In this document: positions 6,802 through 63,528 of the stretch, in pieces
How the letters are laid out: the number at the start of each line of letters is the position of its first letter
Position numbering within the stretch: the first letter of the stretch is position 1
From: Nitrosovibrio tenuis
GTDB lineage: Bacteria > Pseudomonadota > Gammaproteobacteria > Burkholderiales > Nitrosomonadaceae
Reading direction: 5' to 3'
Assembly (NCBI RefSeq): GCF_900109785.1
Contig: NZ_FOBH01000003.1
Coordinates: 186,001 to 250,000 of the forward strand
Length of the DNA stretch: 64,000 bases
Made by a program: the position numbers and the translations under genes
Notes under the pieces: generated by a model
Told to the model about the DNA's origin: nothing
The model's input: only the letters and a program-made list of their open reading frames with translations
Database searches by the model: none

Positions 6802-7077
6802 TCCTGAGGATGCTCTGTATTCTGGGGCGGCTCATGTGCGCGGCTCATGTGTGCGGCAGACCTACATATTTCGGGCATAGGTGACGCCCGAATCTCGCCT
6901 GAGTTCCCAAGTTTTCGAGCGTTTTGTATCTCGGCATTTCTATCTACGTAGCGGGAAATCTGGAAGAACTTCGGCATGTCGTGCTACCCAGCTACTCAAT
7001 ATAGCATACGGACGACGGAGGTTTTGACAGTGTGGACTCTACGGTCTCCGATGGCGGCTTTGGGTCATATGGTGTCC

Positions 7078-7275
7078 ATGACTTACCGAGACTTGATGGC
7101 TTTGAATGTCGGCTATACTCATTTGCCGCTAGAAGCAACAAATTGGAAAACTGAACAAGAACAGACAGTGAGTTTACTTTTGTTTGGCTTATTGCATCTG
7201 ATTGATGCATACGCTGAATTGAATGCTAATGAAACCGTCATCAAAATTTATAACTGCATTGACGATGCCGCATAA
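7078..7275 (+). CDS. small unknown ORF overlapping the P450 start
   Basis: A 65-residue frame (MTYRDLMALNVGYTHLPLEA...) ends at 7275 and overlaps the presumed P450 start in ATGCCGCATAA, an 11-bp overlap typical of translational coupling. In-frame ATGs farther upstream (7069, 7051, 6976) are possible starts; none has a strong ribosome binding site. The product is soluble, mildly acidic and has no motif I recognise. The overlap is the main reason to take it as real. Confidence 0.4.
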   Translation: MTYRDLMALNVGYTHLPLEATNWKTEQEQTVSLLLFGLLHLIDAYAELNANETVIKIYNCIDDAA

Positions 7276-8608
7276 CAAAACAATTCCACAGGTCAAAGGC
7301 GATTATCTGCTGGGCAATTTAAGCCAGATGATTGCGAATCCGTTTCAAGCCCTTTGTGACTGGCAGCGAGACTATGGCGACCTGGTCAGCTTCAGATTGG
7401 CTACCCGCCAATTTTATCTATTCAGTCACCCAAAGCTGATTGAGCAAGCCTTGATCAAACAAGGCGATGTTTTTATAAAAAACTACCATCCTAAAAAACC
7501 AATTGGTCTGGCATTGGTTTTAGGTCAGGGATTAGTAACAAGCCAGGGGGATGTATGGCAAAGACAGCGGCGATTAATGCAGCCGGTTTTTCAGAGAAGC
7601 AACATAACCGCGCTGTTGCCACAAATCGCCATCGCCGGCAGCAATATGCTGGATAGATGGCGGAAGTTGGGTGACGGCGCCGAGATTAACCTCGCAGAGG
7701 AAATGACGCGGCTGACATTGGAGGTGATCACCCAGACCATGTTCAGCACCAGTGTTCTGGACAGAATAGAGCATATCGCTCCATCTTTGGAAACTTTACT
7801 AAAGTATGCCTCTAAAACCCTCCTGAATCCTTTGACTCTCCCGTTGTATGTACCCACCCCCGCCAATCAAAAATTCAAACAGGCATTGGGAATAATTGAT
7901 GATGTCACTTACGGAATCATCGATCAACGCCGCACCGCATCATCTGCGCAGAACGACTTGCTGGATATGTTGTTAAAAGCACATGACAACACTGGTGAAA
8001 AAATGACTGACAGGCAGATTCGTGATGAAGTCATTACCATTTTTAGTGCAGGCCATGAAACCACCGCGAATTTATTGAGCTGGACCTTATATTTACTCGC
8101 CCGGCATCCAGACGTACTCGCTAAACTGCATCAGGAGCTTGACGGTTTGCTGCAAGGAAGAATACCGAACGCCGAAGATTTGCAGCAGTTTGTTTATACC
8201 AGAGCCGTATTAAATGAATCGATGCGTTTTCGTCCGCCTGCTGGCATTCTGCTGCGTAAAGTTAAGAAAGATACCGAGGTTGATGGCTATTTTTTAAAGG
8301 CTGGCAGACTTGTAATATTCAGCATTTTCAATCTTCATCATCATCCTGATTTTTGGCGACGACCGGAGCAGTTTGACCCTGAACGTTTTTTAATACCCGA
8401 AAATCGGAGGTTTTCGTTTATGCCTTTCGGGACAGGGGAGCGCATCTGTATCGGTAGTCATTTTGCATTACTGGAAAGCCAACTTTTGCTAAGCATGATA
8501 GTTCAGCACTGTGATTTACAGTTGCTTGACACTGATGAAGTCGAGATTGAAATGGCGGTCACCCTTCGGCCCAAAGGTGGAATTCCAGTCCGGATAACGT
8601 GGCGATAA
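7265..8608 (+). CDS. cytochrome P450 monooxygenase
   Basis: The protein (447 residues from ATG 7265) has every hallmark of a class I/II bacterial P450: the I-helix oxygen-activation motif AGHETT, the K-helix ExxR (ESMR), the FDPERF segment, and the heme-thiolate loop FMPFGTGERICIGSHFA with the proximal cysteine at about residue 395. It resembles the CYP102/CYP110-like group of soluble bacterial enzymes; no reductase domain is fused and no ferredoxin gene is adjacent, so electrons must come from elsewhere. In-frame ATGs at 7223 and 7229 are alternatives; 7265 best fits the family start and overlaps the upstream small ORF. The gene is visibly more AT-rich than the nuo genes, consistent with transfer. 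Substrate unknown. Confidence 0.92.
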   Translation: MPHNKTIPQVKGDYLLGNLSQMIANPFQALCDWQRDYGDLVSFRLATRQFYLFSHPKLIEQALIKQGDVFIKNYHPKKPIGLALVLGQGLVTSQGDVWQRQRRLMQPVFQRSNITALLPQIAIAGSNMLDRWRKLGDGAEINLAEEMTRLTLEVITQTMFSTSVLDRIEHIAPSLETLLKYASKTLLNPLTLPLYVPTPANQKFKQALGIIDDVTYGIIDQRRTASSAQNDLLDMLLKAHDNTGEKMTDRQIRDEVITIFSAGHETTANLLSWTLYLLARHPDVLAKLHQELDGLLQGRIPNAEDLQQFVYTRAVLNESMRFRPPAGILLRKVKKDTEVDGYFLKAGRLVIFSIFNLHHHPDFWRRPEQFDPERFLIPENRRFSFMPFGTGERICIGSHFALLESQLLLSMIVQHCDLQLLDTDEVEIEMAVTLRPKGGIPVRITWR

Positions 8609-50724: not shown

Positions 50725-51828
50725 TTATGATATTTTGGGCTTGGGATCTGATGCTGAATTGCCGACGTTGGAGGCGAGATCCAGGGCGAGGCGTTTGAGT
50801 GTTTCGCCTTCGTCCAGGCCATCGAGGAATCGTTGTGGAATGCCCGATAGCCCGGTTTGAGCGCCGACGAGCGCGCCAGTCAAAGTGGCGCGCGCCTGGT
50901 TTTCGCCGCCGCCATTTACGGCGTGGAGCACAGCCGATGCAAAATCGTTCGGAAAGCGCGCAGCGAGATGGTAGGCTGCGGGAAGCTGATGATAAATGGC
51001 GCAGGTCATGCCGTAAACGATGGAGACTTTCCATGCGGGCTCTATGCGGATATCCGGGTCCACCGCGGCCGCGGCCACATACGAGGGTGTTAGCAGGGCG
51101 TCCGGAGAGACGAAATATCCGCTTTCGCGCGGATGGTCCTCCTGAGGCGGCTGCAGGTCGGTATGCGCCATCGTATGGAAAGGTAGTTTCCCCGCACTTG
51201 CCAATCGCATGAGCTTGCCGGAAAGGCTACTGTTGAGCTTGTGTCCCTGCACCAGGAGACCCAATACCGCCCCGTACGCCACAGTCAGGGCAACCACGGT
51301 ATCGTCGATCTGGGTAAGCCGTGTATTGCTGGAGATGGCGGCTGCCAGTTCCTGCGGCTGGAAGGCGTACCGAACCGCCAGGGCGAGCGTGCGCCCTACC
51401 GCTTCGGTGGTGTCGGCCTGGCCTCCCGTTTGCCCCCAAGGCAGGTTCTGCTGGACACGCTTGCGCCAGGCGTCGCGGATCGACTGCTGGGTGTATCCGC
51501 CCGGTCCGTTCACAGGCATGCCGTTGAGCAAGGGGAATATTTCCTTATCCAGGCGCCGGCAGAAATCCGCTTCATCATAGCCATCGCGCTCGACGAGCGA
51601 GCGCAGCATGAGCCGGAGAATGATGCCTCCCTGGGAGAGCTGGCCCGCCTTGAGTCCACTATGGTAGCGGCCGAGCTTGGGGTCGGCATAGGTCGTGATC
51701 CAGTCGCCGTAGTCGCGGCGGAGCGCCGCAAGGTCGTAGTACCAGTGGGGGCCAAGGCCTAAGGCATCCCCGATAAAGGCGCCCATGATGGCACCGGCGG
51801 CGCGATTCTGGACGGCGGAATCCGACAC
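50725..51828 (-). CDS. ADP-ribosylglycohydrolase family protein
   Basis: The 367-residue all-helical enzyme has the DraG-type motifs: AIMGAFIGDALGLGPHW near the N-terminus, GQADTTEAVGRTLAL and TRLTQIDDTVVALTVAYG, which supply the acidic residues for the binuclear metal site, and the late GGGENQARATLTGALVGAQTG. Members remove ADP-ribose from proteins or cleave related N-glycosides. I chose GTG 51828 (RIVSDSAVQN) because TAGGAGAT stands seven bases before it; an upstream ATG at 51954 lacks support. It is convergent with the BNR gene and divergent from the next. Confidence 0.85.
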   Translation of the reverse strand: MSDSAVQNRAAGAIMGAFIGDALGLGPHWYYDLAALRRDYGDWITTYADPKLGRYHSGLKAGQLSQGGIILRLMLRSLVERDGYDEADFCRRLDKEIFPLLNGMPVNGPGGYTQQSIRDAWRKRVQQNLPWGQTGGQADTTEAVGRTLALAVRYAFQPQELAAAISSNTRLTQIDDTVVALTVAYGAVLGLLVQGHKLNSSLSGKLMRLASAGKLPFHTMAHTDLQPPQEDHPRESGYFVSPDALLTPSYVAAAAVDPDIRIEPAWKVSIVYGMTCAIYHQLPAAYHLAARFPNDFASAVLHAVNGGGENQARATLTGALVGAQTGLSGIPQRFLDGLDEGETLKRLALDLASNVGNSASDPKPKIS

Positions 51829-51996
51829 AATCCGATCTCCTAAATAAAATGGCGCAGACGTGCACGCCTGACTGGCAAAAAAATGGGCGAGTCCATATTC
51901 CCTGCAAATCTGGTCATATACTGATTTAACAATAGTACACTCAAGTAAATTCACAACAGTATAAAATCGAACTGATCACTCACAGGTGGCTCTATC

Positions 51997-52788
51997 ATGA
52001 ACAAATTTGTATTCATCGTCATGTTGTTATTCTTGAGCTCGGGAGCACAGGCAATGGTGCAGGGAAAAGAAGTGACCTATAGCAGTAATGGGCAAACATT
52101 GAAAGGATACATCGCATATGACGATGAAATAAAAGGCAAGCATCCTGGCGTGCTGGTCGTGCACGAGTGGTGGGGGCACAACGAATATGCCCGCAAGCGG
52201 GCGAGGATGCTGGCTGAGTTGGGCTATACCGCTTTGGCGCTGGATATGTACGGAGACGGAAAGCAGGCTCACCATCCGGACGAGGCCGGCAAATTCTCAG
52301 GCGAGGTAGCGAAGAATTTGCCGCTGGCTAAAGCGCGTTTTGAAGCGGCGATGAAATTTCTCAAACAACAGAGGAACGTGGACGCCAACAATATCGCCGC
52401 GCTGGGTTATTGTTTCGGTGGCAGCGTCGTGCTGCAAATGGCCCGCTTGGGCGAGGATTTGAAAGGCGTGGCCAGCTTCCATGGCGGCCTGGCAACACAG
52501 ACCCTCGCCCAGCCAGGCAAGGTAAAGGCCCGCATTATTTCTTTTACCGGAACGGACGATCCGATGATACCGCCCGAGCAGGTAGCGGCTTTCAAGCAGG
52601 AAATGGAACAAGCCGGGGTGGAGTATAAGGTCGTGACATATCCCGGCGTCAAGCACAGCTTCACCAACCCGGCTGCGGACGAAAATGGCCGCAAGTTTAA
52701 TCTTCCGCTTGCCTATGATGCGGCGGCGGATGCCGCGTCCTGGGAAGAGACCAAGCGTTTCCTGGCTGACGTATTCAAGTCAGAGTGA
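51997..52788 (+). CDS. exported dienelactone hydrolase family protein
   Basis: The 263-residue alpha/beta-hydrolase has a signal peptide (IVMLLFLSSGAQAM). The catalytic triad is readable: nucleophile Cys139 in LGYCFGGS, acid Asp188 (or Asp187) in TGTDDPMIP and His220 in GVKHSFTNP. Substitution of Ser by Cys is the hallmark of this family, which hydrolyses dienelactone and related esters; exported members have mostly unknown substrates. ATG 51997 follows AGGTGG. Divergent from the ADP-ribosylglycohydrolase gene with about 170 bp between; nothing else lies in the gap. Confidence 0.88.
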   Translation: MNKFVFIVMLLFLSSGAQAMVQGKEVTYSSNGQTLKGYIAYDDEIKGKHPGVLVVHEWWGHNEYARKRARMLAELGYTALALDMYGDGKQAHHPDEAGKFSGEVAKNLPLAKARFEAAMKFLKQQRNVDANNIAALGYCFGGSVVLQMARLGEDLKGVASFHGGLATQTLAQPGKVKARIISFTGTDDPMIPPEQVAAFKQEMEQAGVEYKVVTYPGVKHSFTNPAADENGRKFNLPLAYDAAADAASWEETKRFLADVFKSE

Positions 52789-52909: not shown

Positions 52910-55876
52910 TCACTGACGAGGCGGCGTTGAAAGAGTTTTTTTTTGCCGCAGAAATTCCTCGACCTTGTCGCTCGTAACGCCGGGACTGAACAGGTATCCC
53001 TGCATGTCATCGCAATTGAGCGCCCGCAAAAGCGAGGCCTGCTCATGGGTTTCAACCCCCTCCGCAATCACTTTCAGGTTCAGGGAATGCGCCAACGATA
53101 TGATGGTGGAAACAATCGTAAAATCATCGTGATTCGTACCCATATTGATAATGAAAGCACGATCTATTTTCAATACGTTGACGGGCAACTTGGCTATATA
53201 GCTGAGTGAGGAATAGCCAGTACCGAAGTCGTCTATCGCGACTTCGATATTCATTTCACGGATGCGCCTGAGCTTTTGGATATTCGCTTCTATATCCTGC
53301 ATGATTACACTTTCGGTAATCTCAAATTCCAGGCCGATCTCCACGTCTTTGGCGGCTTCCACGACGCTTGCTACCATCTCGACGAAATCGTTCTGTCGTA
53401 ATTGAATGGGCGAGACGTTTACGGCAATCTTGGGCGGATTTAACCCCATGGCTTGCCATTTCCTGTAATCCGATATCGCCTTGCCCAGCGCCCAACGACC
53501 CGCCTCAAGAATCATCCTGGTTTCTTCGAGCAAAGGAATGAAACTCAGCGGAGGAATAAGGCCGATTTCCGGATCGCGCCAGCGCATCAGTGCCTCCAGG
53601 CCGCTGATTTGTCCGGTTTTCAGGTTAACTTTCGGCTGGTAGTGCAGTACCAGCTGTTCCTGCTCCAGGGCTTGCCGCAGCTTGGTTTCAAGCTTCAGCT
53701 TTTCCGTGATGCGGGCATTGAACTCAGGTGCATAAAACAGGTGTCTGTCGCCGGAAAGCTTGGCCCTTTTCAGCGCTGTTTCAGCATGCCGCAAAAGTGT
53801 ATCGGTATCTCGGCCGTCGCCAGGATAAGACGACGTGCCTGCTCTGGCGGAAACGTGCAGCTCCTGACCTCCTATCAGGAAAGGCTGGTTCTGGATTTCA
53901 AGCAAAACTGTATCCAAAACATGGGCAATGGTTGTACTTTCTCCTTCGTGCGAGGTGGCGATAGCAAAATGATCTCCCGAAAGATGGGCCAGAATATCTG
54001 TTTCAGCGAGCAACTGTCTCAATCGTTGCGCGAGCTGGCGTAACAGGCTGTCTCCCGCCTGGTGGCCAAGCGACTCGTTTATGCTGCTGAATCGCTCGAG
54101 GTCAAGAATAATTACAGAAAGTACCTCATGGTTGTGTTCACCGGTTCTGATTCGCTGATCGACGCGGTCGAGGAAGAGTGCTCGATTAGGAAGATCCGTT
54201 ACCGCATCAAAGAAAGCCAGGTAATTAATGCGTTCCTCTTTTTTCAAGTGATCCATAGCGAAAGAAATGTCGCCGGCCATCTCAATCAACAGCCTCATTT
54301 CCTCTTCATCGAAGAATCCTGTTTCAGGCGCATAGAGCGCGAACATGCCGATCACCTGCGCATCCAGGGTTAACGGCAACACCACCATGGAGTGATAGCC
54401 TTGCTCTAGCGCTGCGGCATGGGACGCATGCATGCGCTTGTCAGTAAGATCGTTGCAAATCGCTGGCTGGGCCTGCGTTAGCGCCTGCGCTATTAACGAT
54501 GAGTTTCCGGGGGATTCAATCACATTATCCAAGCTGAGCTGTGACAGATAGCCATCGTCCCGACCCGCCTGTGCCATCGGTGTGACATTCCCTGTATGTG
54601 CATCGAACCTCCCGATCCAGCCAAACACAAATCGGCCGTGATCCACCGCGATACGGCATGCGTCGTCGAAAAGCTCCTGGATTTCCCGAACGCGCACGAT
54701 AGTGGTGTTTATACCGCTTAACACGCTGTAAATCCGGTTGAGCCGGACAATTCTGGTCTCATACTCTTTACGCAGCGAGATTTCCGTGGTGAGCGCGGCA
54801 GTACGCTGTGCGACCAGGTGTTCCATCTTTTCATGCAGCCAGGCACGCTCCAGCGCAATGCTTACCTGATGCCCGATCCCGTAGAACATTTCCAGTTCAT
54901 TTTCCTTGAAAGGGTCTTGTTGGGTCCCCATCAGGTTGAGAATGCCTCGGTTCCGATTACGTATCCGCAAGGGGACACTGGCGTGGCTGGTTGACTTGCT
55001 GGCATCTGCTCCCGGTTCCATAAGCTGCTTGCAACCGACAATAGTGGTAACCTGGGCTAACTCCCCTGCGAGAAAACGTCGCTGACATTCGCATACCCCA
55101 TCAGTCGTATTCATAGCCGACAATGTGGAGGGTGCGACGCGCGCCGCAGCCAGTCGAAAAGTGTTGTTGTTTTCCAGGTAGAGCCACCCTGCTTGTAACC
55201 CGGGGAGCTCCATGGCGTACTCAAGTGCTTTTTCACATACCTCACGTTCGGTTACCGCCTGGTTCAAACCCTCGGCGATACGGTAAAGGCCGTTAAGCAA
55301 GTGATTCGAGTGTGCCAGCTCCACCTGCCGTGCATGCAGTTCGTTGTTGAGACGGATCGCATCCTCATAGATTGAGATCAGCAAATCCAATATCTGCTGG
55401 CGTTCGGCGGTTATAAAATGCTTTTGCCCCCCCAGATAAATCTCCATTCCCATCTGCATCTTCTGATTCTTGCGTAATGCCAGATTCATAAGCAGATAGC
55501 TGATGCGGGAAAGGAGATATTCGCCATCATAAGGCTTGCGGATGAAATTATCCGCACCGCATTCCAGCCCTTTCATGATATCCCTGATATCCGAAAGCGA
55601 GGTGAGCAGGATTACGGGTATATCCTTGAGCTGCTCATCATGTTTGATTTGCCCGCATAGCGTGTACCCATCCATCTCGGGCATCATCACATCACTGACA
55701 ATCAATGCGGGTTTTCGCCGCCGAGCCGCTGCGAGGGCTTGCTTACCGTTTGGCACGGCTACGACGGAATAGCCGTGCTCCTCAAGCAGGTATCGCAGTT
55801 TTTCCGCTTGGGTTGGGCTGTCCTCCGCAATCAAAATCTCAGCGTTGCTGGGCTTATTTTGAATGTCGTAAGTCAC
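52910..55876 (-). CDS. response regulator with REC-GAF-GAF-degenerate GGDEF-EAL domains
   Basis: The 988-residue cytoplasmic output protein starts with a CheY-like receiver (residues about 13-135; phosphoacceptor Asp62 in VSDVMMPEMDG, Thr/Lys at LLTSLSD and IRKPYDG). Two GAF-like regions follow (about 195-345, 400-545), then a diguanylate cyclase fold (550-735) whose active loop reads SGDHF (633-637) instead of GGDEF, and an EAL domain with EALMRWR (761), FEITES, IDDFGTGYSSL (882) and AEGVET all intact. It should therefore hydrolyse c-di-GMP. The start lies 23 bp inside cheB, making it the last gene of the chemosensory operon; CheA phosphorelay is the likely input. Confidence 0.92.
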   Translation of the reverse strand: MTYDIQNKPSNAEILIAEDSPTQAEKLRYLLEEHGYSVVAVPNGKQALAAARRRKPALIVSDVMMPEMDGYTLCGQIKHDEQLKDIPVILLTSLSDIRDIMKGLECGADNFIRKPYDGEYLLSRISYLLMNLALRKNQKMQMGMEIYLGGQKHFITAERQQILDLLISIYEDAIRLNNELHARQVELAHSNHLLNGLYRIAEGLNQAVTEREVCEKALEYAMELPGLQAGWLYLENNNTFRLAAARVAPSTLSAMNTTDGVCECQRRFLAGELAQVTTIVGCKQLMEPGADASKSTSHASVPLRIRNRNRGILNLMGTQQDPFKENELEMFYGIGHQVSIALERAWLHEKMEHLVAQRTAALTTEISLRKEYETRIVRLNRIYSVLSGINTTIVRVREIQELFDDACRIAVDHGRFVFGWIGRFDAHTGNVTPMAQAGRDDGYLSQLSLDNVIESPGNSSLIAQALTQAQPAICNDLTDKRMHASHAAALEQGYHSMVVLPLTLDAQVIGMFALYAPETGFFDEEEMRLLIEMAGDISFAMDHLKKEERINYLAFFDAVTDLPNRALFLDRVDQRIRTGEHNHEVLSVIILDLERFSSINESLGHQAGDSLLRQLAQRLRQLLAETDILAHLSGDHFAIATSHEGESTTIAHVLDTVLLEIQNQPFLIGGQELHVSARAGTSSYPGDGRDTDTLLRHAETALKRAKLSGDRHLFYAPEFNARITEKLKLETKLRQALEQEQLVLHYQPKVNLKTGQISGLEALMRWRDPEIGLIPPLSFIPLLEETRMILEAGRWALGKAISDYRKWQAMGLNPPKIAVNVSPIQLRQNDFVEMVASVVEAAKDVEIGLEFEITESVIMQDIEANIQKLRRIREMNIEVAIDDFGTGYSSLSYIAKLPVNVLKIDRAFIINMGTNHDDFTIVSTIISLAHSLNLKVIAEGVETHEQASLLRALNCDDMQGYLFSPGVTSDKVEEFLRQKKTLSTPPRQ

Positions 55877-56963
55877 GCTCTAATTTCTCCCTATGGTTCA
55901 CAAGATTCGTTAGCGCTGCGGCAATCTTCTCCAGCGGTAAGATCAGCATCGCAGCATCCAGCTTGATAGCCTCGCCTGGCATGCCGTGCACCACGGAACT
56001 ATCCTTATCCTGGGCAAACGTAATTGCGCCACGCTCCTTGAGCAGTTTCAGGTCCTTCGCTCCATCGCGTCCCATGCCGGTCAATAAACCGGCCACGGCG
56101 TCGGCGCCATAGACCTCGGCAACAGCACGGAAGAGGTATGAAATTGAAGGCCTTAGCCCATGCTCGGGATCATTTTTTGTCAGGGCGATCTTTCCTTCGC
56201 GTTCTACCTTCATCTGGTATTCGTCGGGTGCGACGTAGACATGCCCGGGCAGGAGTGACTCGCCGTGCGCGGCGACACGGACAGGCAGACGAGATGAATT
56301 CGCCAGCCAGCGGGCGAAACCCCTTATAAACCCCGGAGACATGTGCTGGACGATTAAAATCGGGACCGGGAAGTCTTTTGGAAGTGACGCCAGGATAGTC
56401 TCGAGTGCCGGCGGACCGCCGGTCGAGGCGCCGATGGCGACAATTCTTGGTTTTGCCGATTCGCGTGCCAACCTCGCGTTTTCGGAGAGGGAAGTTTCGG
56501 CGCGGGGAATTTCAGGGCGCGGAGCGGGTGCCGCGGTCCGCATGCCCGGCCACCGTCGTATCACCCTCACCTCCGACATCAGTTTTACGGTCTGTACCAT
56601 ATCTTGAGCCATGGCTTCATGGTCGGGATGGCCGATGCCAGCCGGGCGACGCAGCACCGCCAGCGCGCCGGCATCCATTGCATTAAATGTCGTCGCGACT
56701 TCAGAGGGATCTTCGGTACCGCTTACGATAACAATGGGTGTCGGTTCCGTTTCCATGATGGCGCGTGTAGCGTCAAGCCCGTTCAGTTTGGGCATGTGGA
56801 TGTCCATCGTGATGACGTCCGGTCGTTGGCGACGCACGGCACGGAGGGCTTCCTCACCGTCACATGCTATGCCGACAACCCTGATGTCGGGGTCGGAGTT
56901 GAAAATGTGAACAAGGAATTCACGCACTACCGGCGAGTCATCCACTACCAGGACCTTGATCAT
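55854..56963 (-). CDS. cheB: CheB-type receptor methylesterase with receiver domain (WspF-like)
   Basis: The 369-residue enzyme has an N-terminal receiver ([17 protein letters not shown]; phosphoacceptor Asp54 in TMDIHMP) and a C-terminal methylesterase with the catalytic triad Ser180 (IGASTGGP), His207 (VQHMSPGF) and Asp300 (GMGRDG). It removes methyl groups from receptor glutamates when phosphorylated by the CheA. The start ATG 56963 overlaps the CheA stop by 4 bp, and its end overlaps the REC-EAL gene. By order and context it corresponds to WspF. Confidence 0.95.
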   Translation of the reverse strand: MIKVLVVDDSPVVREFLVHIFNSDPDIRVVGIACDGEEALRAVRRQRPDVITMDIHMPKLNGLDATRAIMETEPTPIVIVSGTEDPSEVATTFNAMDAGALAVLRRPAGIGHPDHEAMAQDMVQTVKLMSEVRVIRRWPGMRTAAPAPRPEIPRAETSLSENARLARESAKPRIVAIGASTGGPPALETILASLPKDFPVPILIVQHMSPGFIRGFARWLANSSRLPVRVAAHGESLLPGHVYVAPDEYQMKVEREGKIALTKNDPEHGLRPSISYLFRAVAEVYGADAVAGLLTGMGRDGAKDLKLLKERGAITFAQDKDSSVVHGMPGEAIKLDAAMLILPLEKIAAALTNLVNHREKLERDLRHSK

Positions 56964-59311
56964 GACTGTTGCGTTGACGATGTGCCAATGAGCCGCTGTA
57001 TGACCTCCAGCAGATTGCTCTGATCGAAGCTGCCTTTTACGATGTAGGCGTTGGCGCCAGCATCGATACCGCGCTCGCGGTGTTCGCGTGACTCCAGTGC
57101 CGTGACCAGCACGACGGGCAGCCCCGAGAATTGCTTCTCGGCGCGTATCTGGGCTGTGAGGCCAAAACCATCCATACGCGGCATTTCCACATCCGAGACA
57201 ACTAAATCGAAGGCGCCTGTCTTGAGCGTCGTATAACCGTCCACTCCATCCACGGCCGTGCTGACACGGTAGCCTGCCGACTCCAGGATGTTTTTGAGCA
57301 ATACGCGCGAAGTGATCGAATCCTCTACTACAAGAATCGATTGTTTTTTTGCTTTTTCTTCCTTTGGGGTCGACAAAGGGCTAGCAAATTCCGGTGCCGA
57401 AGCGGGACGCTTCACAGCCGATTTGAGTAGATCGGCTGTGTTGAGCACGGGCGCTACCCTGCCGGACCCCAGCACGCTGGCGCCCGCGATATTGCGTACC
57501 CTGATCAAAGGCCGAACCAGAGCTTTGACCAGCACCTCTTGCTCACCAATAATCTCTTCCACTAAAAACGCCACGCGAAGGAGACGTGACCCGAGCACTA
57601 CAACCGTTGCGCTGTCCGTGGGTTCGACGGATACCGCACGACGAGGTAATTCAAGTACATCGCTCAACCAGACGAGAGAAACCGGCTGCTCATCCACAAG
57701 GATGGTGGCCCGGTTTTCGACGGTTCGGATTTCTTTATAGGGAATCCGGACCACTCGCTCGACACTCGTGGAAGGAATAACAAATAGCTGCTCGCCCGCA
57801 TGAACAAGGACTCCTCGAAAGTTTGCCAGCGTTCGCGGGAGGGAAATATGGAAAGCGGTTCCCTCAGCAGGTTTTGATTTCACCGCGATACTGCCGCCCA
57901 GGTGCTCGACTTTTTCACGGACAATCGCTAGCCCGAGTCCACGTCCGGATATATCGGTGACGATGGGGCTGGTTGTGACGCCCGATTGAAAGGCGAGTGC
58001 CGCTGCCTCCAGGTCGCCCAGTTGTTCCGCCTCGTCGGTGGAAACAACGCCGAGCTTGCAGGCTGCGGCTTTCACCATGGTGAGGTCCAAGCCGGCTCCA
58101 TCATCGGCAACGAGCACCTCAACCGTACTGCTGTCTTTTTGCGAGCATGCTAATGTAATGGTTCCATGGGGCGGTTTGCCCCCGGCTACGCGCACGGGCG
58201 GTTGCTCAATACCATGATCAATGCAATTACGCACGAGGTGGATAAGCGGATCTTTCATCTCTTCGAGGATGTGCCGATCTATCTCAAGCTCGCTTCCTTG
58301 AATCACCGTTTCCAGGCTTTTACCCTGCTCGCGTGCCAGTTCGCGCGAGAATCGGGGGAGAATCCCCAGCAATGACGCGAATGGCAATAACTGCATCTCC
58401 TTGACATCCTGTCGCAGGGTGTCGGTCATGCCGACAAGCATGCGCTGATCCTGCTCGGCTGCATGCTGAAGCCGCGCCAGCTGATCCTCAAGCATCTTCA
58501 TCTGGACTTGCTCGGCATCAAGATACTTAAGGAGCTTGGGGAGCTCATGTATTGGAAGGGAGCGATTGGCATCCGTGCCACTGCTCGTCAGCTCGCGATC
58601 AACAACACGCAATACCGGTTGAATTTGAAGCCGCTGTTTCTTCCATGTTGCAAGTGTTGTAGTTGCGTGGCCGAGCTCCTGCGCTCGGTGACCGACCGCC
58701 ATGCACGGCAGCAAAAGCTCCTCAACCTGGCGCATCACCATGTCGAGTTTTTCGGCGGAAACCCGTACAGTGGTTGATGCCCGGCTGGGAGGAGAGCTTG
58801 ATGCCGCACGCGCGCCGGGCTGGGTTGGCGTATTGTCGGTCGGTAGCCCAACCTGAGGTGGCGATACGGGCGTCGAAGATACGGGCAGGGAAGGTTCGGG
58901 CGACGGCCTTCTCAACGCGTCGTCGAGCTGCCGAATGAGTGGGGCTACCGCAGGTTTGCGTGCGCTGGCCTCGCCGTCGTCACTGGCAAGAAGCCCCTCT
59001 AGCGCGTTGGTTGCCTGGAGCAGCAGGTCGATCAACTCCGATGAGATGACCAGGCGCTTGTCTTTCGTTGCTGAAAATATGTTTTCCAGAGACCGGCAGA
59101 CTGCTTCGACATGCGTGAGATTCACGGCTCGGGCAGCGCCTTTCAGACTGTGGGCGGCCCGAAAAATGGCTTCAATAAGAGCAGATTGCTCAGCCACAGG
59201 TGTTTTTTCCAGCGCAAGCAGCCCCGAAGCCATAGTCTGAAGATGCGCATCCGCTTCAACACGAAACGTTACGAGCAGCTTTTTCAGAAGCTCATCATTC
59301 TTGTTTTTCAT
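56960..59311 (-). CDS. cheA: hybrid chemosensory histidine kinase CheA-REC (WspE-like)
   Basis: The 783-residue protein has an N-terminal Hpt domain (phosphorylatable His54 in [12 protein letters not shown]), a short linker without a CheY-binding P2 domain, a dimerisation/HATPase region ([28 protein letters not shown]), a CheW-like P5 domain and a C-terminal receiver with [12 protein letters not shown]. The fused receiver is the distinctive feature of WspE and related alternative-function kinases. It should phosphorylate CheB and the REC-EAL protein. Start ATG 59311 overlaps the receptor stop by 4 bp, its end overlaps cheB by 4 bp. Confidence 0.95.
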
Positions 59312-60792
59312 GGACGTCGCACAGGCTCGGTATCGAAATCCTTGCCGCCTACCAAAGTCTTCAGCCTGATCCCCATCTCGTAGAGCCCCTGCGCTGCCAG
59401 TTCCGCCTGCCTCGTACCCGCTACGTTCTGTTCGCTCGCCTCCTTGATGTTGTTCATTGCCACTACTACCTGATCCATGCCAACCATTTGCTGGTGGCTG
59501 GACGCCGCAATCTGGGTGGCCGCCTGTGACGCCTCATTGATACTTGTCGATAGCAGCCTGATTGCTTCATCGGTCGCTGCGGATTGTTTCACGCCCGCTT
59601 CTACTGCTTTGTTGCCCTGTTCGGTAGCGAGAACCGCGATATTGGTCGCCTTCTGGATGTCGCCAAGGATCGTCCGCACCTGTCCGGTGGCCTGCTTCGA
59701 TTGCTCGGCAAGGCTTCTGATCTCGTGCGCCACCACGCCGAAACTCTTGCCTTGTTCTCCGGCCCGGGCAGCCTCAATGGCCGCATTAACCGCGAGGAGA
59801 TTCGACTGCTCAGCCAAGTCATTGACGGTGGCAATGATCTGGCCGATGGCATGGCTCTGCTCGGATAGTTGGACGATGCTTTCGGCGATAGACCCCATCT
59901 GTTCCCGGATACGGTGCATCCCATGAATAGCTTCTTCTACCGATTTGCGTCCCGCCTGGGAGACATTCGAAGCTTTCTGCGCGCTGTCGGAAACATACTT
60001 GGCCTTCTGGCTTGCATGCTGTGCGGTTTGCTTGACCTCTTCCACCGTGGCGGTCGTCTCGCTCACCGCGGCTGCGGTTTCAGCTGCGCCTGAGGCTACC
60101 TGCGTGGTAGTGGCAAGAATCTCGGCCGAGGACGCCGACAGTTGAGCGATACTTTCCCGAAGTTCGCGGGTAATGACACGGCTTAGATGAAATCCAATCG
60201 TTAACCCGACAATAACGGCAAACAGGGCGGCCATTATCAGTGTCAGCGTATAAAAACTCACTTTCTCGTCAAGTTCGGCCCTTGCTTTTTCCAGCAGCTT
60301 CGCCTGTCGTTCATAGAAACGCGTCGCCTTCTCGATGAGTGCCATGCTTCGAGGACGAAACTCCTTGATAGTATAGGCGAGTGCCTCTTCATCCTTTTTT
60401 TCCAGTGCCAGCCGTACGGAATTTTGCTGAGCCTGCTGCAGTTGCTGCTGAAGCGTTTCGAGATTATCCACCAGGGTGCTTCCTTCCCCGGTATTCATCA
60501 GGCTGCGCATTTTCTCAAAGGTCTGCTTGAACTTGCGGTCATTCTCGGCCAGAAAAATTTGATTCGGCTGCTGTAGTTCCGGATAGAGCAAAATACCGCG
60601 GACATACGTCTGCTGGGCAAAGGTAGTGGCCCGCAGTTCATTGGCGGCCTCCAGGAGCCGCTCATCTACATTGAGAAAATGGTCGTACGTTGCCTGTGTC
60701 TGTTTAAGCGCAAAAAAAGCAACGCTGGTTACGAGCACGAGCAGTGACAGTATGGCTACGTAGCCCCCGATTATCTTCTTGCTAATGGTCAT
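59308..60792 (-). CDS. methyl-accepting chemotaxis protein without recognisable HAMP domain
   Basis: The 494-residue receptor has TM1 (about residues 8-28), a helical periplasmic domain (29-180, four-helix-bundle type with a glutamine-rich coil), TM2 (181-203) and then runs directly into the signalling coil: only about 15 residues ([15 protein letters not shown]) precede it, so a usual 50-residue HAMP is absent. The hairpin tip [19 protein letters not shown] is intact. It ends FDTEPVRRP, lacking the pentapeptide that tethers CheR. ATG 60792 with AAGGAAAAA upstream is the start; ATG 60825 is in frame but unsupported. It overlaps the CheA gene by 4 bp. Position corresponds to WspA moved downstream of cheW/cheR. 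Confidence 0.93.
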
Positions 60793-60862
60793 TATTTTTC
60801 CTTCGAAGCTTGGATCTTGTCGCAAGGATTGTCATGGTAGTTATGGTTGAGCCTCGTGGTCT

Positions 60863-60914
60863 GCTCAATTCGTTCGCTCAATTGGTCCGCTTAATTCGTC
60901 CGCTCAATTCATTC
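60863..60914. repeat. four 13-bp tandem repeats between cheW and the receptor gene
   Basis: GCTCAATTCGTTC, GCTCAATTGGTCC, GCTTAATTCGTCC and GCTCAATTCATTC run head to tail without gaps at 60863, 60876, 60889 and 60902. They fill most of the 128-bp gap between the cheW stop (60921) and the receptor start (60792), the only real gap inside the operon, and could be an internal promoter/operator or simply a minisatellite. Confidence 0.9.
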
Positions 60915-60920
60915 AGATTT

Positions 60921-61571
60921 CTACTCGGTTACGTGTTCCCGCACGATAATGTTTTCTGATGCCAAAAATTTTTCTGCATCAAGGAGCGCCACTCTCTCAG
61001 GCGTGACACCCTTCAGATAATCCTTTCGCACGCCTGTAAGCGTGGGTAGCGAGGGTTGGATGTGCCCCAGCGCGATATTGCGTACGCCGACTATCTCATC
61101 CGCTAAAATACAGAAGAGCATTTTTTCCCATTTCAGCACGATAATCTTGTTGAGATCGGTTAAACCCTTTACCGGTAATTCGAAAAAACGCTTGAGATCG
61201 AGGACAGGCAATATCGCGCCGCGCAAATTAACGATACCGAGCACAAAAGCCGGCGTGCACGGCAGCGGTACAAGATGCTCCAGCATGGCAACCTGGCGCA
61301 CATAATGCGTTTCAACCGCGTATCTCTCATAGGCAAGCGTGAATTCGAGGACCTCGATGACGTCGTCCGTGCTCTCGTGTCCTGATGGTTCGTGCGCGAG
61401 TGTTAGCGCCCTTTCCTGAAGAATTCTCTGCGTCTCTTCGGCCGACGGCGCCCAGACACTTTCAAGGGCTGTGCGCATAGTATCGAGACGCGGATCGAGT
61501 TCGCTGCCGCTGTATTTGGCGACTCCCGGTTTCGCGTCTTTTTGAGGAGAAGTGTCTGGAGTGTCGGTCAC
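60921..61571 (-). CDS. cheW: CheW-like coupling protein with N-terminal extension (WspD-like)
   Basis: The 216-residue protein has a CheW domain (about residues 70-210; VLEFTLAYERYAVETHYVRQV, FVLGIVNLRGAILPVLDLKRFF) preceded by about 65 extra residues with a conserved ILQERALTLA helix, as in WspD. It links the receptor to the CheA kinase. ATG 61571 overlaps the CheR stop by 4 bp. Its 3' end is followed by the four 13-bp repeats. Confidence 0.92.
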   Translation of the reverse strand: MTDTPDTSPQKDAKPGVAKYSGSELDPRLDTMRTALESVWAPSAEETQRILQERALTLAHEPSGHESTDDVIEVLEFTLAYERYAVETHYVRQVAMLEHLVPLPCTPAFVLGIVNLRGAILPVLDLKRFFELPVKGLTDLNKIIVLKWEKMLFCILADEIVGVRNIALGHIQPSLPTLTGVRKDYLKGVTPERVALLDAEKFLASENIIVREHVTE

Positions 61572-63067
61572 TGTGCTTCGCTTTCTTGGGGTACGAGCAG
61601 GATGCTCGAGCGCACGGATGTGATAATGTCGCTAAGCCGTCCGGCAGTCAGCCCGTTCGATTCCGGTACAAGCTCATCGTATGGGTGCGGGGAAAGCAGC
61701 GCCAATGCATTGCCGAAATGGCGGTTCGCCTCGCGGTACCGATTGAGAGACATACACAGGTTGCCTAGCGCGAAGTGGGCGAGCACAAAGTCGGGATCGA
61801 GATAAAGCGTATGCCTCAGGGACTGTATTGCCGTTGTGCTTTGTCCCAGCTCTTGACATATTGTCGCAAGAAGATAATGAGCTGCCGGGTTCAGTTTGTT
61901 GACCGCGATTGCTTTTTCACACCAGCTGACGGCTTCGGTGAGCTTCCCGAGATTGGCATAAGAACGCGCTGTATGGCAGAGCGTCTCGAATTTCTCATCG
62001 TCCTTAGGGCTTTCAGCATTGCCCATCTCTGCTGTTTGAGCGGGCATAGCCGCTGCTGCTTCTATCAGCCATTCCATCCCTGAGTCTTTAAATGAAAGTA
62101 GCGTCTTTTCATCCTTAACATGCAGAGGTGGCGTCAGAGCTTGCACAGACATGCTTCCGCAGTCCGGTTGCATATCCGGCATTGGGGCGTTGTGTTTGCC
62201 CGTGTTTTCCCATGGCTCGGTGATTGTTGGCTTGTGATAGAGAATCGCTGTGGGAAAGGTAGTCTGTTTGAACTGCGGAAATAAGTTGTGTGACATCTCT
62301 ACGGGGCTCAGAATGAGCCAGCCCCCATGGGTGAGTGACCGATGGAGGTTTCGTCCAATCCTCATTACCCTGTCAGGGCTGAAATACATCAGCACATTGC
62401 GACAGAAAATAATGTCCATCGCATCGGCACCGTTGGTGATGCCGGGATAACTTTCCTCGGCGAGATTGAGGTAGGAAAAAGTTACCCGCTTTCGAATATG
62501 AGGCAAAAGCTCGAATTGCCCGTTTTTTCTGCGTTTAAAATATAGCTCTTTGACCCAGGCAGGCGTGCCGCGAAATGACCATTCGCCGTATAGACCCGTG
62601 GCCGCTTTTTCGAGGAATACGGGGTTGATATCGGTGGCCATTATTGTTGCGGTATCCGGGGCATATTGGCCCAGGCGATCAAGGAGTATAGCGATCGAGT
62701 AGGGCTCTTCTCCGGTGCAGCAGCCAGCGCTCCAGATGCGCAACTGCCGATGCGAATGTGCGCATGCGCGCAACAATTGCGGGAAAATATGCTCCTCAAG
62801 CACATCAAAATATCCTTTCTCACGAAAAAAGTAGGTCTCGCCCACCGTTAGATGACGAGCGAGTATCTCGATCTGCCGTCGCGTCAGGGAAGCGGAAAGG
62901 AGTTGACGGATACAGGATCCCACGTCCATCATCCCAAGCGCAGGCGCAGCGGCGGCAATACGGCGCTCGAGATCACCCCAGCTCGTTGTCGGATAGTACA
63001 AGCCCATCTCCATCTCAAGTAATTGGCTGAGCTGGGGAAGCAGTGGATGGGGGAGAGCGCTTTTCAT
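61568..63067 (-). CDS. cheR: CheR-type methyltransferase with C-terminal TPR repeats (WspC-like)
   Basis: The 499-residue protein has an N-terminal all-helical CheR domain, the SAM-binding methyltransferase core (RIWSAGCCTGEEPYSIAILL; DIIFCRNVLMYF) and, after a low-conservation linker (about 280-355), TPR-like repeats (ARSYANLGKLTEAVSWCEKAI; LATICQELGQSTTAIQSLRHT; ALGNLCMSLNRYREANRHFG). It methylates receptor glutamates using S-adenosylmethionine. TPR-bearing CheR is characteristic of WspC and FrzF-type systems; the TPRs may replace the missing receptor tether. Start ATG 63067 is 8 bp after the first cheW. Confidence 0.94.
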   Translation of the reverse strand: MKSALPHPLLPQLSQLLEMEMGLYYPTTSWGDLERRIAAAAPALGMMDVGSCIRQLLSASLTRRQIEILARHLTVGETYFFREKGYFDVLEEHIFPQLLRACAHSHRQLRIWSAGCCTGEEPYSIAILLDRLGQYAPDTATIMATDINPVFLEKAATGLYGEWSFRGTPAWVKELYFKRRKNGQFELLPHIRKRVTFSYLNLAEESYPGITNGADAMDIIFCRNVLMYFSPDRVMRIGRNLHRSLTHGGWLILSPVEMSHNLFPQFKQTTFPTAILYHKPTITEPWENTGKHNAPMPDMQPDCGSMSVQALTPPLHVKDEKTLLSFKDSGMEWLIEAAAAMPAQTAEMGNAESPKDDEKFETLCHTARSYANLGKLTEAVSWCEKAIAVNKLNPAAHYLLATICQELGQSTTAIQSLRHTLYLDPDFVLAHFALGNLCMSLNRYREANRHFGNALALLSPHPYDELVPESNGLTAGRLSDIITSVRSSILLVPQESEAQ

Positions 63068-63075
63068 ACGTGGTC

Positions 63076-63528
63076 TCAGATGGCCGAAAGGGCCAAATCC
63101 AGGGAAGCCTCTTCTTCAAGAGAAAGAAATTTGTCGAGATTGTGGATGAGTATCAATCCATCTTCAAACTTGATAATGCCTTCGACGTGCCCGAGGCCCG
63201 GAAGGACATGCTCTGCGGAGATCATGTTCCACTCCGAACATTCGATAACGTCATCTACTGCGTCTGCCACCAGCGCTACGGAACGCCGTTTCGTGCGTGC
63301 GAAAATAAGCCGGTCGGACAGGGAGATTGCCCGTTTCGGCATATTGAAACGCTGACGGACATTAATGGCTGGTATGACCCGGCCCTCTATATTGACTATG
63401 CCGAGCACAATGTCTGGCGCACTTGATACCGGAGTGATGTGGACCATGCGCACCACCCGGTCTACCGTAGACAGATGCAGGGCATAACGTTGGTTATCCA
63501 GAATAAAAACGAGATATTGATTAACCAT
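63076..63528 (-). CDS. cheW: CheW-like coupling protein (WspB-like)
   Basis: The 150-residue protein is a single CheW domain (YLVFILDNQRYALHLSTVDRV; IVLGIVNIEGRVIPAINVRQR; GIIKFEDGLILIHNLDKFL). It is the first gene of the operon, so the 308-bp region 63529-63836 upstream should hold the promoter; I could not assign a convincing sigma70, sigma54 or FliA site there. A second, longer CheW follows after cheR. Confidence 0.93.
   Translation of the reverse strand: MVNQYLVFILDNQRYALHLSTVDRVVRMVHITPVSSAPDIVLGIVNIEGRVIPAINVRQRFNMPKRAISLSDRLIFARTKRRSVALVADAVDDVIECSEWNMISAEHVLPGLGHVEGIIKFEDGLILIHNLDKFLSLEEEASLDLALSAI

Follow-up and report, generated by a model that had tools for sequence, protein, structure and literature searches.

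The window analysed here is a stretch of 64,000 nucleotides from Nitrosovibrio tenuis (C13:186001-250000 in our contig numbering; source genome 3.10 Mb in 32 contigs), and its minus strand carries a seven-gene chemosensory operon whose last product is a response regulator with domains for the turnover of cyclic di-GMP (c-di-GMP), the messenger that governs whether cells stick or swim. From the first gene of the operon on, the features are as follows, with the evidence in brackets.

63076..63528, minus strand: CheW 1, 150 aa, first operon gene (Pfam CheW, E=1.6e-26)
61568..63067, minus strand: CheR methyltransferase with C-terminal TPR, 499 aa (Pfam CheR, E=3.3e-45; several TPR models)
60921..61571, minus strand: CheW 2, 216 aa, with an N-terminal extension of ~70 aa (Pfam CheW at residues 73-205)
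59308..60792, minus strand: HAMP-less methyl-accepting chemotaxis protein (MCP) with 4HB sensor and two transmembrane helices (Pfam MCPsignal and 4HB_MCP_1; hydropathy)
56960..59311, minus strand: CheA-type hybrid kinase Hpt-HATPase-CheW-REC, 783 aa (Pfam; CheA tree)
55854..56963, minus strand: CheB, receiver (REC) and methylesterase, 369 aa (Pfam; NCBIfam PRK12555 and PRK00742 above their cut-offs)
52910..55876, minus strand: output protein REC-linker-GAF-GAF-GGDEF(SGDHF)-EAL, 988 aa (Pfam; motifs; PDB sequence matches)

All seven open reading frames (ORFs) were found at the coordinates and on the strand given in an earlier sequence-only reading, and the Pfam search confirmed every domain call made there. 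The genes overlap or almost touch, apart from a gap of ~128 bp ahead of the MCP gene, for which an ATG start at 60792 is likelier than the TTG at 60825, where the longest ORF begins; the output gene overlaps cheB by 23 bp, and it also comes after cheB in 20 Nitrosospira regions or loci (17 distinct).

In the output protein, Pfam located REC at residues 14-125 (E=4e-27), GGDEF at 554-710 (E=6e-36), EAL at 732-965 (E=5e-72) and two GAF stretches. As had been stated before, the signature SGDHF stands in place of GGDEF and the EAL motifs are present: E761, N820, E855, D882, D883, K903, E939 and Q959 are all found, eight residues that we take to be the catalytic and metal-binding set. The passages of PMC9239204 on A-site signatures count GGDEF, GGEEF, SGDEF and AGDEF as active, and SGDHF lies outside that list. 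Relatives were compared in an alignment of 29 outputs (the window, 11 relatives from the CheA search and 17 Nitrosospira, three genomes being in twice) and along a CheA tree of 76 rows, which comprised the window with a clade of 54 loci, 7 Wsp-type loci and 14 other hand-chosen rows. The window's clade was set by a BLAST score of at least 440 bits; 129 loci were considered, 5 were without a suitable CheA frame and 5 were duplicates, and 44 of the 119 kept rows are not in the tree. The fourth-position Glu of GGDEF was lost in 27/29 aligned outputs and the EAL residues were retained in 29/29, as were the residues for phosphorylation of the receiver (29/29, some genomes twice); GGDEF is intact in the two exceptions, L020 (Pseudomonas tumuqii record) and L021 (Stutzerimonas stutzeri record). 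The inner clade of the CheA tree (39 rows including the window) has 33 GGDEF-EAL outputs, 3 histidine kinase outputs and 3 outputs cut off or missing. The catalytic Glu is replaced in all 33 GGDEF-EAL outputs, the window's included (Y 12, H 9, S 6, C 3, A 1, N 1, R 1), and the eight EAL residues were found in every inner-clade row complete at those positions, the alignment gaps in two incomplete rows fitting a split frame (L208) and a contig end (L220). Because the GGDEF catalytic residue is lost and the EAL residues are kept across the inner clade, the proposal that the output does not make c-di-GMP and probably degrades it was upheld, and we predict from these residues that c-di-GMP degradation is the most likely activity of the protein.

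Breakage of GGDEF by chance or in a single strain was considered and rejected, since the loss is common to 33/33 inner-clade outputs. Elsewhere in the same genome, GG[DE]EF is retained at 10 of 15 GGDEF places. A paralogue of the GAF2-GGDEF-EAL part lies on the same contig near C13 position 62008 (L098 637-3063); it is a GAF-GGDEF-EAL protein without a receiver, has the signature SADCF and is 47% identical to the window output over 630 residues.

Tandem GGDEF-EAL receptors exist, and the EAL domain might be a c-di-GMP sensor or regulatory only, the output acting by protein contact as FimX and LapD do, so that the array would read c-di-GMP. The LapD model of NCBIfam scored 122 bits (below its cut-off of 1020) and FimX entries were among the PDB matches at lower scores; the best NCBIfam matches were phosphodiesterases, among them DibA, which at 412 bits did not reach its cut-off of 980. 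Receptors of the FimX and LapD type have lost EAL catalytic residues, whereas all eight are intact in the window output, and we regard the sensor explanation as improbable. The PDB sequence matches favour a phosphodiesterase: the GGDEF-EAL part (residues 549-966) aligns with PDB 4rnh ('Motility regulator', E=2.6e-101), and the EAL part matches PDB 5m1t ('MucR Phosphodiesterase').

The degenerate GGDEF domain is kept, for it is about as conserved as EAL within Nitrosospira (mean identity to the window across 17 rows 79.3% for GGDEF and 80.7% for EAL). Asn600 and Asp609, presumably the guanine-binding positions of active cyclases, were retained in 29/29 aligned outputs, and the domain may therefore still bind GTP; at what we take to be the RxxD inhibitory site the window reads AETD. 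PdeA has a degenerate GGDEF domain, linked to GTP, which regulates its EAL domain. To our knowledge, neither PdeA nor FimX is a chemosensory response regulator. The window output resembles FimX in having a degenerate GGDEF domain, which in FimX is linked to GTP and to regulation of EAL in the relevant passages of PMC8846402.

Two parts of the output protein ahead of the GGDEF domain were compared in detail.

55277..55486, minus strand: 70-residue linker behind REC, output residues 131-200 (identity in relatives)
54797..55291, minus strand: GAF1, output residues 196-360, with C262, C264, C282 and H298 conserved (Cys counts; alignment A4)

Where the output is a kinase, as in three members of the inner clade (L009, a Polaromonas sp. 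UBA5171 record; L011, Methyloversatilis sp.; and L206), the linker is still 63-70% identical. Its conservation across EAL and kinase outputs indicates that the C-terminal effector has been exchanged behind a conserved input module. Such conservation would also fit a shared mechanism of activation, although it is no proof of activation, and nothing in the sequence fixes the sign, with two GAF domains and a degenerate GGDEF domain lying between the receiver and EAL. Phosphorylation might thus inhibit the phosphodiesterase, in which case the active kinase would raise c-di-GMP and the net sign would be as in Wsp; we think this rather unlikely.

In GAF1, C262 is present in 38/43 rows, C264 in 40/43 and C282 in 38/40, and H298 is invariant in the 36-row alignment A4, which holds 36 of the 41 available rows (the window and 40 others) and omits the near-copies L148 and L160 and the outer-clade kinase rows L210, L213 and L216, the last three of which do not show the Cys pattern. 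The three inner-clade kinase outputs share the Cys pattern, and all three Cys are absent from one Nitrosospira, L162. Judging from conservation, Cys-x-Cys...Cys...His could be a candidate metal, redox or nitric oxide (NO) site. A profile search of GAF1 against PDB returned general GAF domains, none of which was seen to account for the Cys3-His arrangement, and a literature search on GAF domains with conserved cysteines gave nothing useful.

Among relatives, cyclase-like genes may also be inserted into the operon. Five operons have one or two GGDEF genes placed between cheA and cheB, the signatures being GGDEF, GGEEF, GGDEI or GGEEI, and such an insert is absent from the window and from the 17 Nitrosospira regions read.

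L005, 11393-14361: inserted cyclase-like GGDEF gene(s)
L010, 2867-4198: the same
L200, 2499-3938: the same
L201, 2502-3836: the same
L204, 4938-8780: the same

Two further relatives are of note. In L151, from a Nitrosospira genome, cheB is apparently split into two frames, 6918-7523 and 7357-8058 (methylesterase part and REC part). The CheA of L012 shares 54% identity with that of the window, and the output there is REC-GAF-GAF-GGDEF(GADAF)-EAL; the title of this record, 'Klebsiella pneumoniae MAG', looks doubtful among betaproteobacterial relatives.

The operon resembles the Wsp system (WspABCDEF-R) in its set of a 4HB MCP, two CheW, CheR-TPR, CheA-REC and CheB, which is of the alternative cellular function (ACF) type, and in a response regulator acting on c-di-GMP, as found in 5/7 Wsp-type loci. 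These seven loci came from plasmid or second-chromosome records via tblastn, the first found with the window CheA as query and the others with a Cupriavidus CheA; Pseudomonas WspE is not among the rows. The shared protein types, CheR-TPR, two CheW and CheA-REC included, would suit a true Wsp system in which WspR was replaced by a phosphodiesterase, and the WspR/WspH exchange described for Burkholderia in the pertinent parts of PMC8552884 is a published precedent for output-domain exchange in a Wsp-like array. However, the WspH output is a hybrid kinase and both Burkholderia loci group with Wsp, while the usual output in the window's inner clade is an EAL protein, with a kinase in three rows. 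In the CheA tree the 7 Wsp-type rows are set apart by one branch and the 55 rows of the window's clade by another, each with an SH-aLRT of 100 (the drawn tree shows 99 for the clade). This tree was made by a quick method; 24/73 of its inner branches are open, rows are long and long-branch warnings were given, one of them about the Wsp branch meeting the long row L025. The window CheA is ~31% identical to Cupriavidus WspE, as against 50-54% for the other Wsp-type rows. The MCP gene lies ahead of the other Che genes in 7/7 Wsp-type loci (in L165 by domain position), whereas in the window it sits directly before cheA; the order CheW-CheR-CheW-MCP-CheA is found in the window and in 41 of 54 clade loci, the remaining 13 being cut, incomplete or different. 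HAMP is present in 7/7 Wsp-type, 16/17 outer-clade and 5/34 inner-clade MCPs, and the 4HB MCP of the window is without it. The output receiver is 25-30% identical to five WspR-type receivers. REC-GGDEF is the last product of five of the Wsp-type loci, and in both Burkholderia loci no output follows cheB. The window protein, REC-GAF-GAF-GGDEF(SGDHF)-EAL, is neither the REC-GGDEF of WspR nor the REC-kinase of WspH. Similarity of the MCP to WspA-type MCPs (29-33%) is confined to the signalling part; its sensor part had no Wsp match, a weak point because many MCPs of its own clade were missed too and because WspA tolerates exchanged sensor domains according to passages of PMC8846402.

Of the earlier claim that the seven genes match the Wsp complement one for one, the list of protein types stands, while gene order (the MCP position) and HAMP speak against it. 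The further claim, a Wsp system with inverted output, is not supported by the CheA tree, the receiver, the MCP or the gene order. Wsp membership was rejected on the tree, gene order, HAMP and the receiver, and a Wsp system with an exchanged output seems to us very improbable. As CheA, receiver, MCP and gene order differ from Wsp, neither the Wsp sign nor its surface stimulus can be transferred to this array. The combination of a multidomain response regulator with CheR-TPR in one cluster places it in the ACF class as defined in the corresponding part of PMC3447774, and we read it as another ACF lineage, the inner members of which are mostly without HAMP, and not as Wsp.

Taken from sequence comparison, it is likely that the operon encodes an ACF-type array of a lineage apart from Wsp, whose CheA-REC drives a receiver-bearing c-di-GMP phosphodiesterase. 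The 4HB, HAMP-less membrane receptor and two CheW would control the hybrid kinase, CheR-TPR and CheB would set the methylation of the receptor, and CheA would phosphorylate both CheB and the 988-aa output, the latter on its receiver. This output would be a phosphodiesterase with an intact EAL site, in which the GGDEF domain, having lost its catalytic site, probably serves as a regulatory module. Phosphorylation would activate, not inhibit, the phosphodiesterase, and the result would be lower c-di-GMP, so that cells would swim or detach more. The 'inverted surface or adhesion switch' suggested earlier is one possibility among several. We count in favour of a phosphodiesterase-driving array that 2 of the 3 inner-clade kinase relatives, L011 and L206, have a co-directional REC-EAL gene adjoining the kinase gene, with EAL residues intact by alignment.

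Several points weigh against this proposal. Intact EAL motifs do not guarantee activity, since proteins that have them may be inactive or serve as sensors, and one inner-clade row has an E-to-D change at the second Glu of EGVE. The output is a kinase in three inner-clade rows, one of which, L009, is without an EAL gene in its 8-kb contig, and it is cut off or missing in three more. Across the wider clade, GGDEF is intact in L020 and L021, the output of L018 is just REC-GGDEF (GGEEF), and kinases occur in several rows, so that degradation is not the rule there. Finally, the genome has 14 other EAL places, and the phosphodiesterase may therefore act only locally.

Broad precedents for such wiring are known. 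One is the phosphodiesterase Pch, which we take to be DipA. In P. aeruginosa, phosphorylated CheA promotes Pch and lowers c-di-GMP, according to the parts of PMC3861689 that treat it; there, too, the enzyme promoted by a chemosensory kinase is a phosphodiesterase, one with GAF, PAS, degenerate GGDEF and EAL domains. Unlike the window protein, which has its own receiver and is encoded in the same operon as an ACF-type kinase, Pch is without a receiver, and an adaptor was proposed in those parts. The other precedent is the survey of PMC3447774, in whose passages on ACF clusters with CheR-TPR the multidomain response regulators comprise ~20 with GGDEF, one with EAL and two with both; those passages hold no lineage, no signature analysis and no ammonia oxidisers. 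Passages of PMC8846402 assign Wsp to type ACF, and the outputs given there in Table 2, on systems that sense surfaces, are all cyclases. The present array adds a variant, a receiver-bearing phosphodiesterase output in its own operon. Literature searches on c-di-GMP and chemotaxis in Nitrosospira, on Wsp in that genus, on chemosensory phosphodiesterase outputs and on flagella and chemotaxis of N. multiformis, with subscription journals mostly outside their scope, found no description of the operon.

The nearest named CheA relative is that of Nitrosospira sp. Nsp14 (81%). Nitrosospira is a betaproteobacterial ammonia oxidiser, and the source bacterium is taken as a soil member of this group. A full CheA orthologue (at least 59% identity) was present in 18/23 Nitrosospira genomes. 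Of 399 sampled genomes from the order, 25 had a match at E<=1e-90, including the window's genome and one congener, and no match came from the 11 listed members of the family that belong to other genera. The genome of the window has a single MCP match (PF00015), the operon's own, and three CheW domains, all inside the operon, and the array appears to be the cell's only one of its kind. Exactly one MCP match, each beside the operon's CheA, was found in 17 of the 18 operon-bearing Nitrosospira genomes, and G017 has two. Of the five Nitrosospira genomes without the operon, among them G016 (80% complete), three have one other MCP and two none. FliG was present in 22/23 Nitrosospira genomes, the exception, G019, bearing the operon. 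A different MCP (frame of 762-776 aa) with a distant CheA was observed in G001, G016 and G018, all without the operon; only G017 has both systems.

The window's genome has a flagellar cluster with FliG, FliM, FliF, flagellin, MotA, MotB and FlgI. No CheY- or CheA-like frame was seen in the 60 kb around it, but a LuxR-type regulator with a kinase-like frame was. The NCBIfam CheY model gave 25 matches on this genome, none above its cut-off and the best being the CheA receiver itself, which is a weak negative as only 1/14 control genomes reached the cut-off. Two of the matches fall in short frames, of 137 and 147 aa, that consist of a single receiver and each adjoin a histidine-kinase-like frame; they share 27% and 31% identity with the CheY-like protein adjoining the other CheA of G018. 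Thus the genome has no recognisable CheY, though it may have a divergent one; FliM keeps the N-terminal stretch LSQEEVNILLKG, which we presume to resemble the CheY-binding motif, and its retention calls for caution about the absence of CheY. The receptor domains PilZ and MshEN were not found in the genome, which leaves no c-di-GMP receptor identified there.

A wider proposal, which we put forward tentatively and hold to be less probable than not, is that the array, as the only chemosensory system in most Nitrosospira, steers a flagellated cell without CheY through c-di-GMP turnover. Navigation or settling would then be set by the receiver-bearing phosphodiesterase and not by a diffusible phospho-regulator at the motor, the Cys3-His of GAF1 would add a second, intracellular input (metal, redox or NO) to the same enzyme, and the cyclase genes with intact signatures in the same operon of several clade relatives would form a push-pull unit with it.

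If an array is indeed wired to a phosphodiesterase here, chemosensory arrays can push the messenger down as well as up, and which way they push would be decided by swapping the domain C-terminal to a conserved receiver. As this is seemingly the sole array in 17/23 Nitrosospira genomes by MCP count, its function would be testable without redundancy, in organisms important for nitrification.

At the gathering threshold the window has no RNA family, and hence no curated c-di-GMP riboswitch. Scans of the window for promoters (7 promoter-like vs 7.8 expected) and terminators (12 terminator-like vs 12.1 expected) were at chance level. In the 14 kb upstream, no link was seen between the operon and a type I CRISPR-Cas-like gene run, which lies directly upstream of the window (C13:250001-264000; L084 2036-13811) and consists, from ORF sequences read by eye, of a cas3-like helicase, more cas-like ORFs, a cas1-like ORF and then repeat-rich stretches. 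Near the other end of the operon lies a dienelactone hydrolase family gene (51997-52788, plus strand), followed by an ADP-ribosylglycohydrolase family gene (50725-51954, minus strand).

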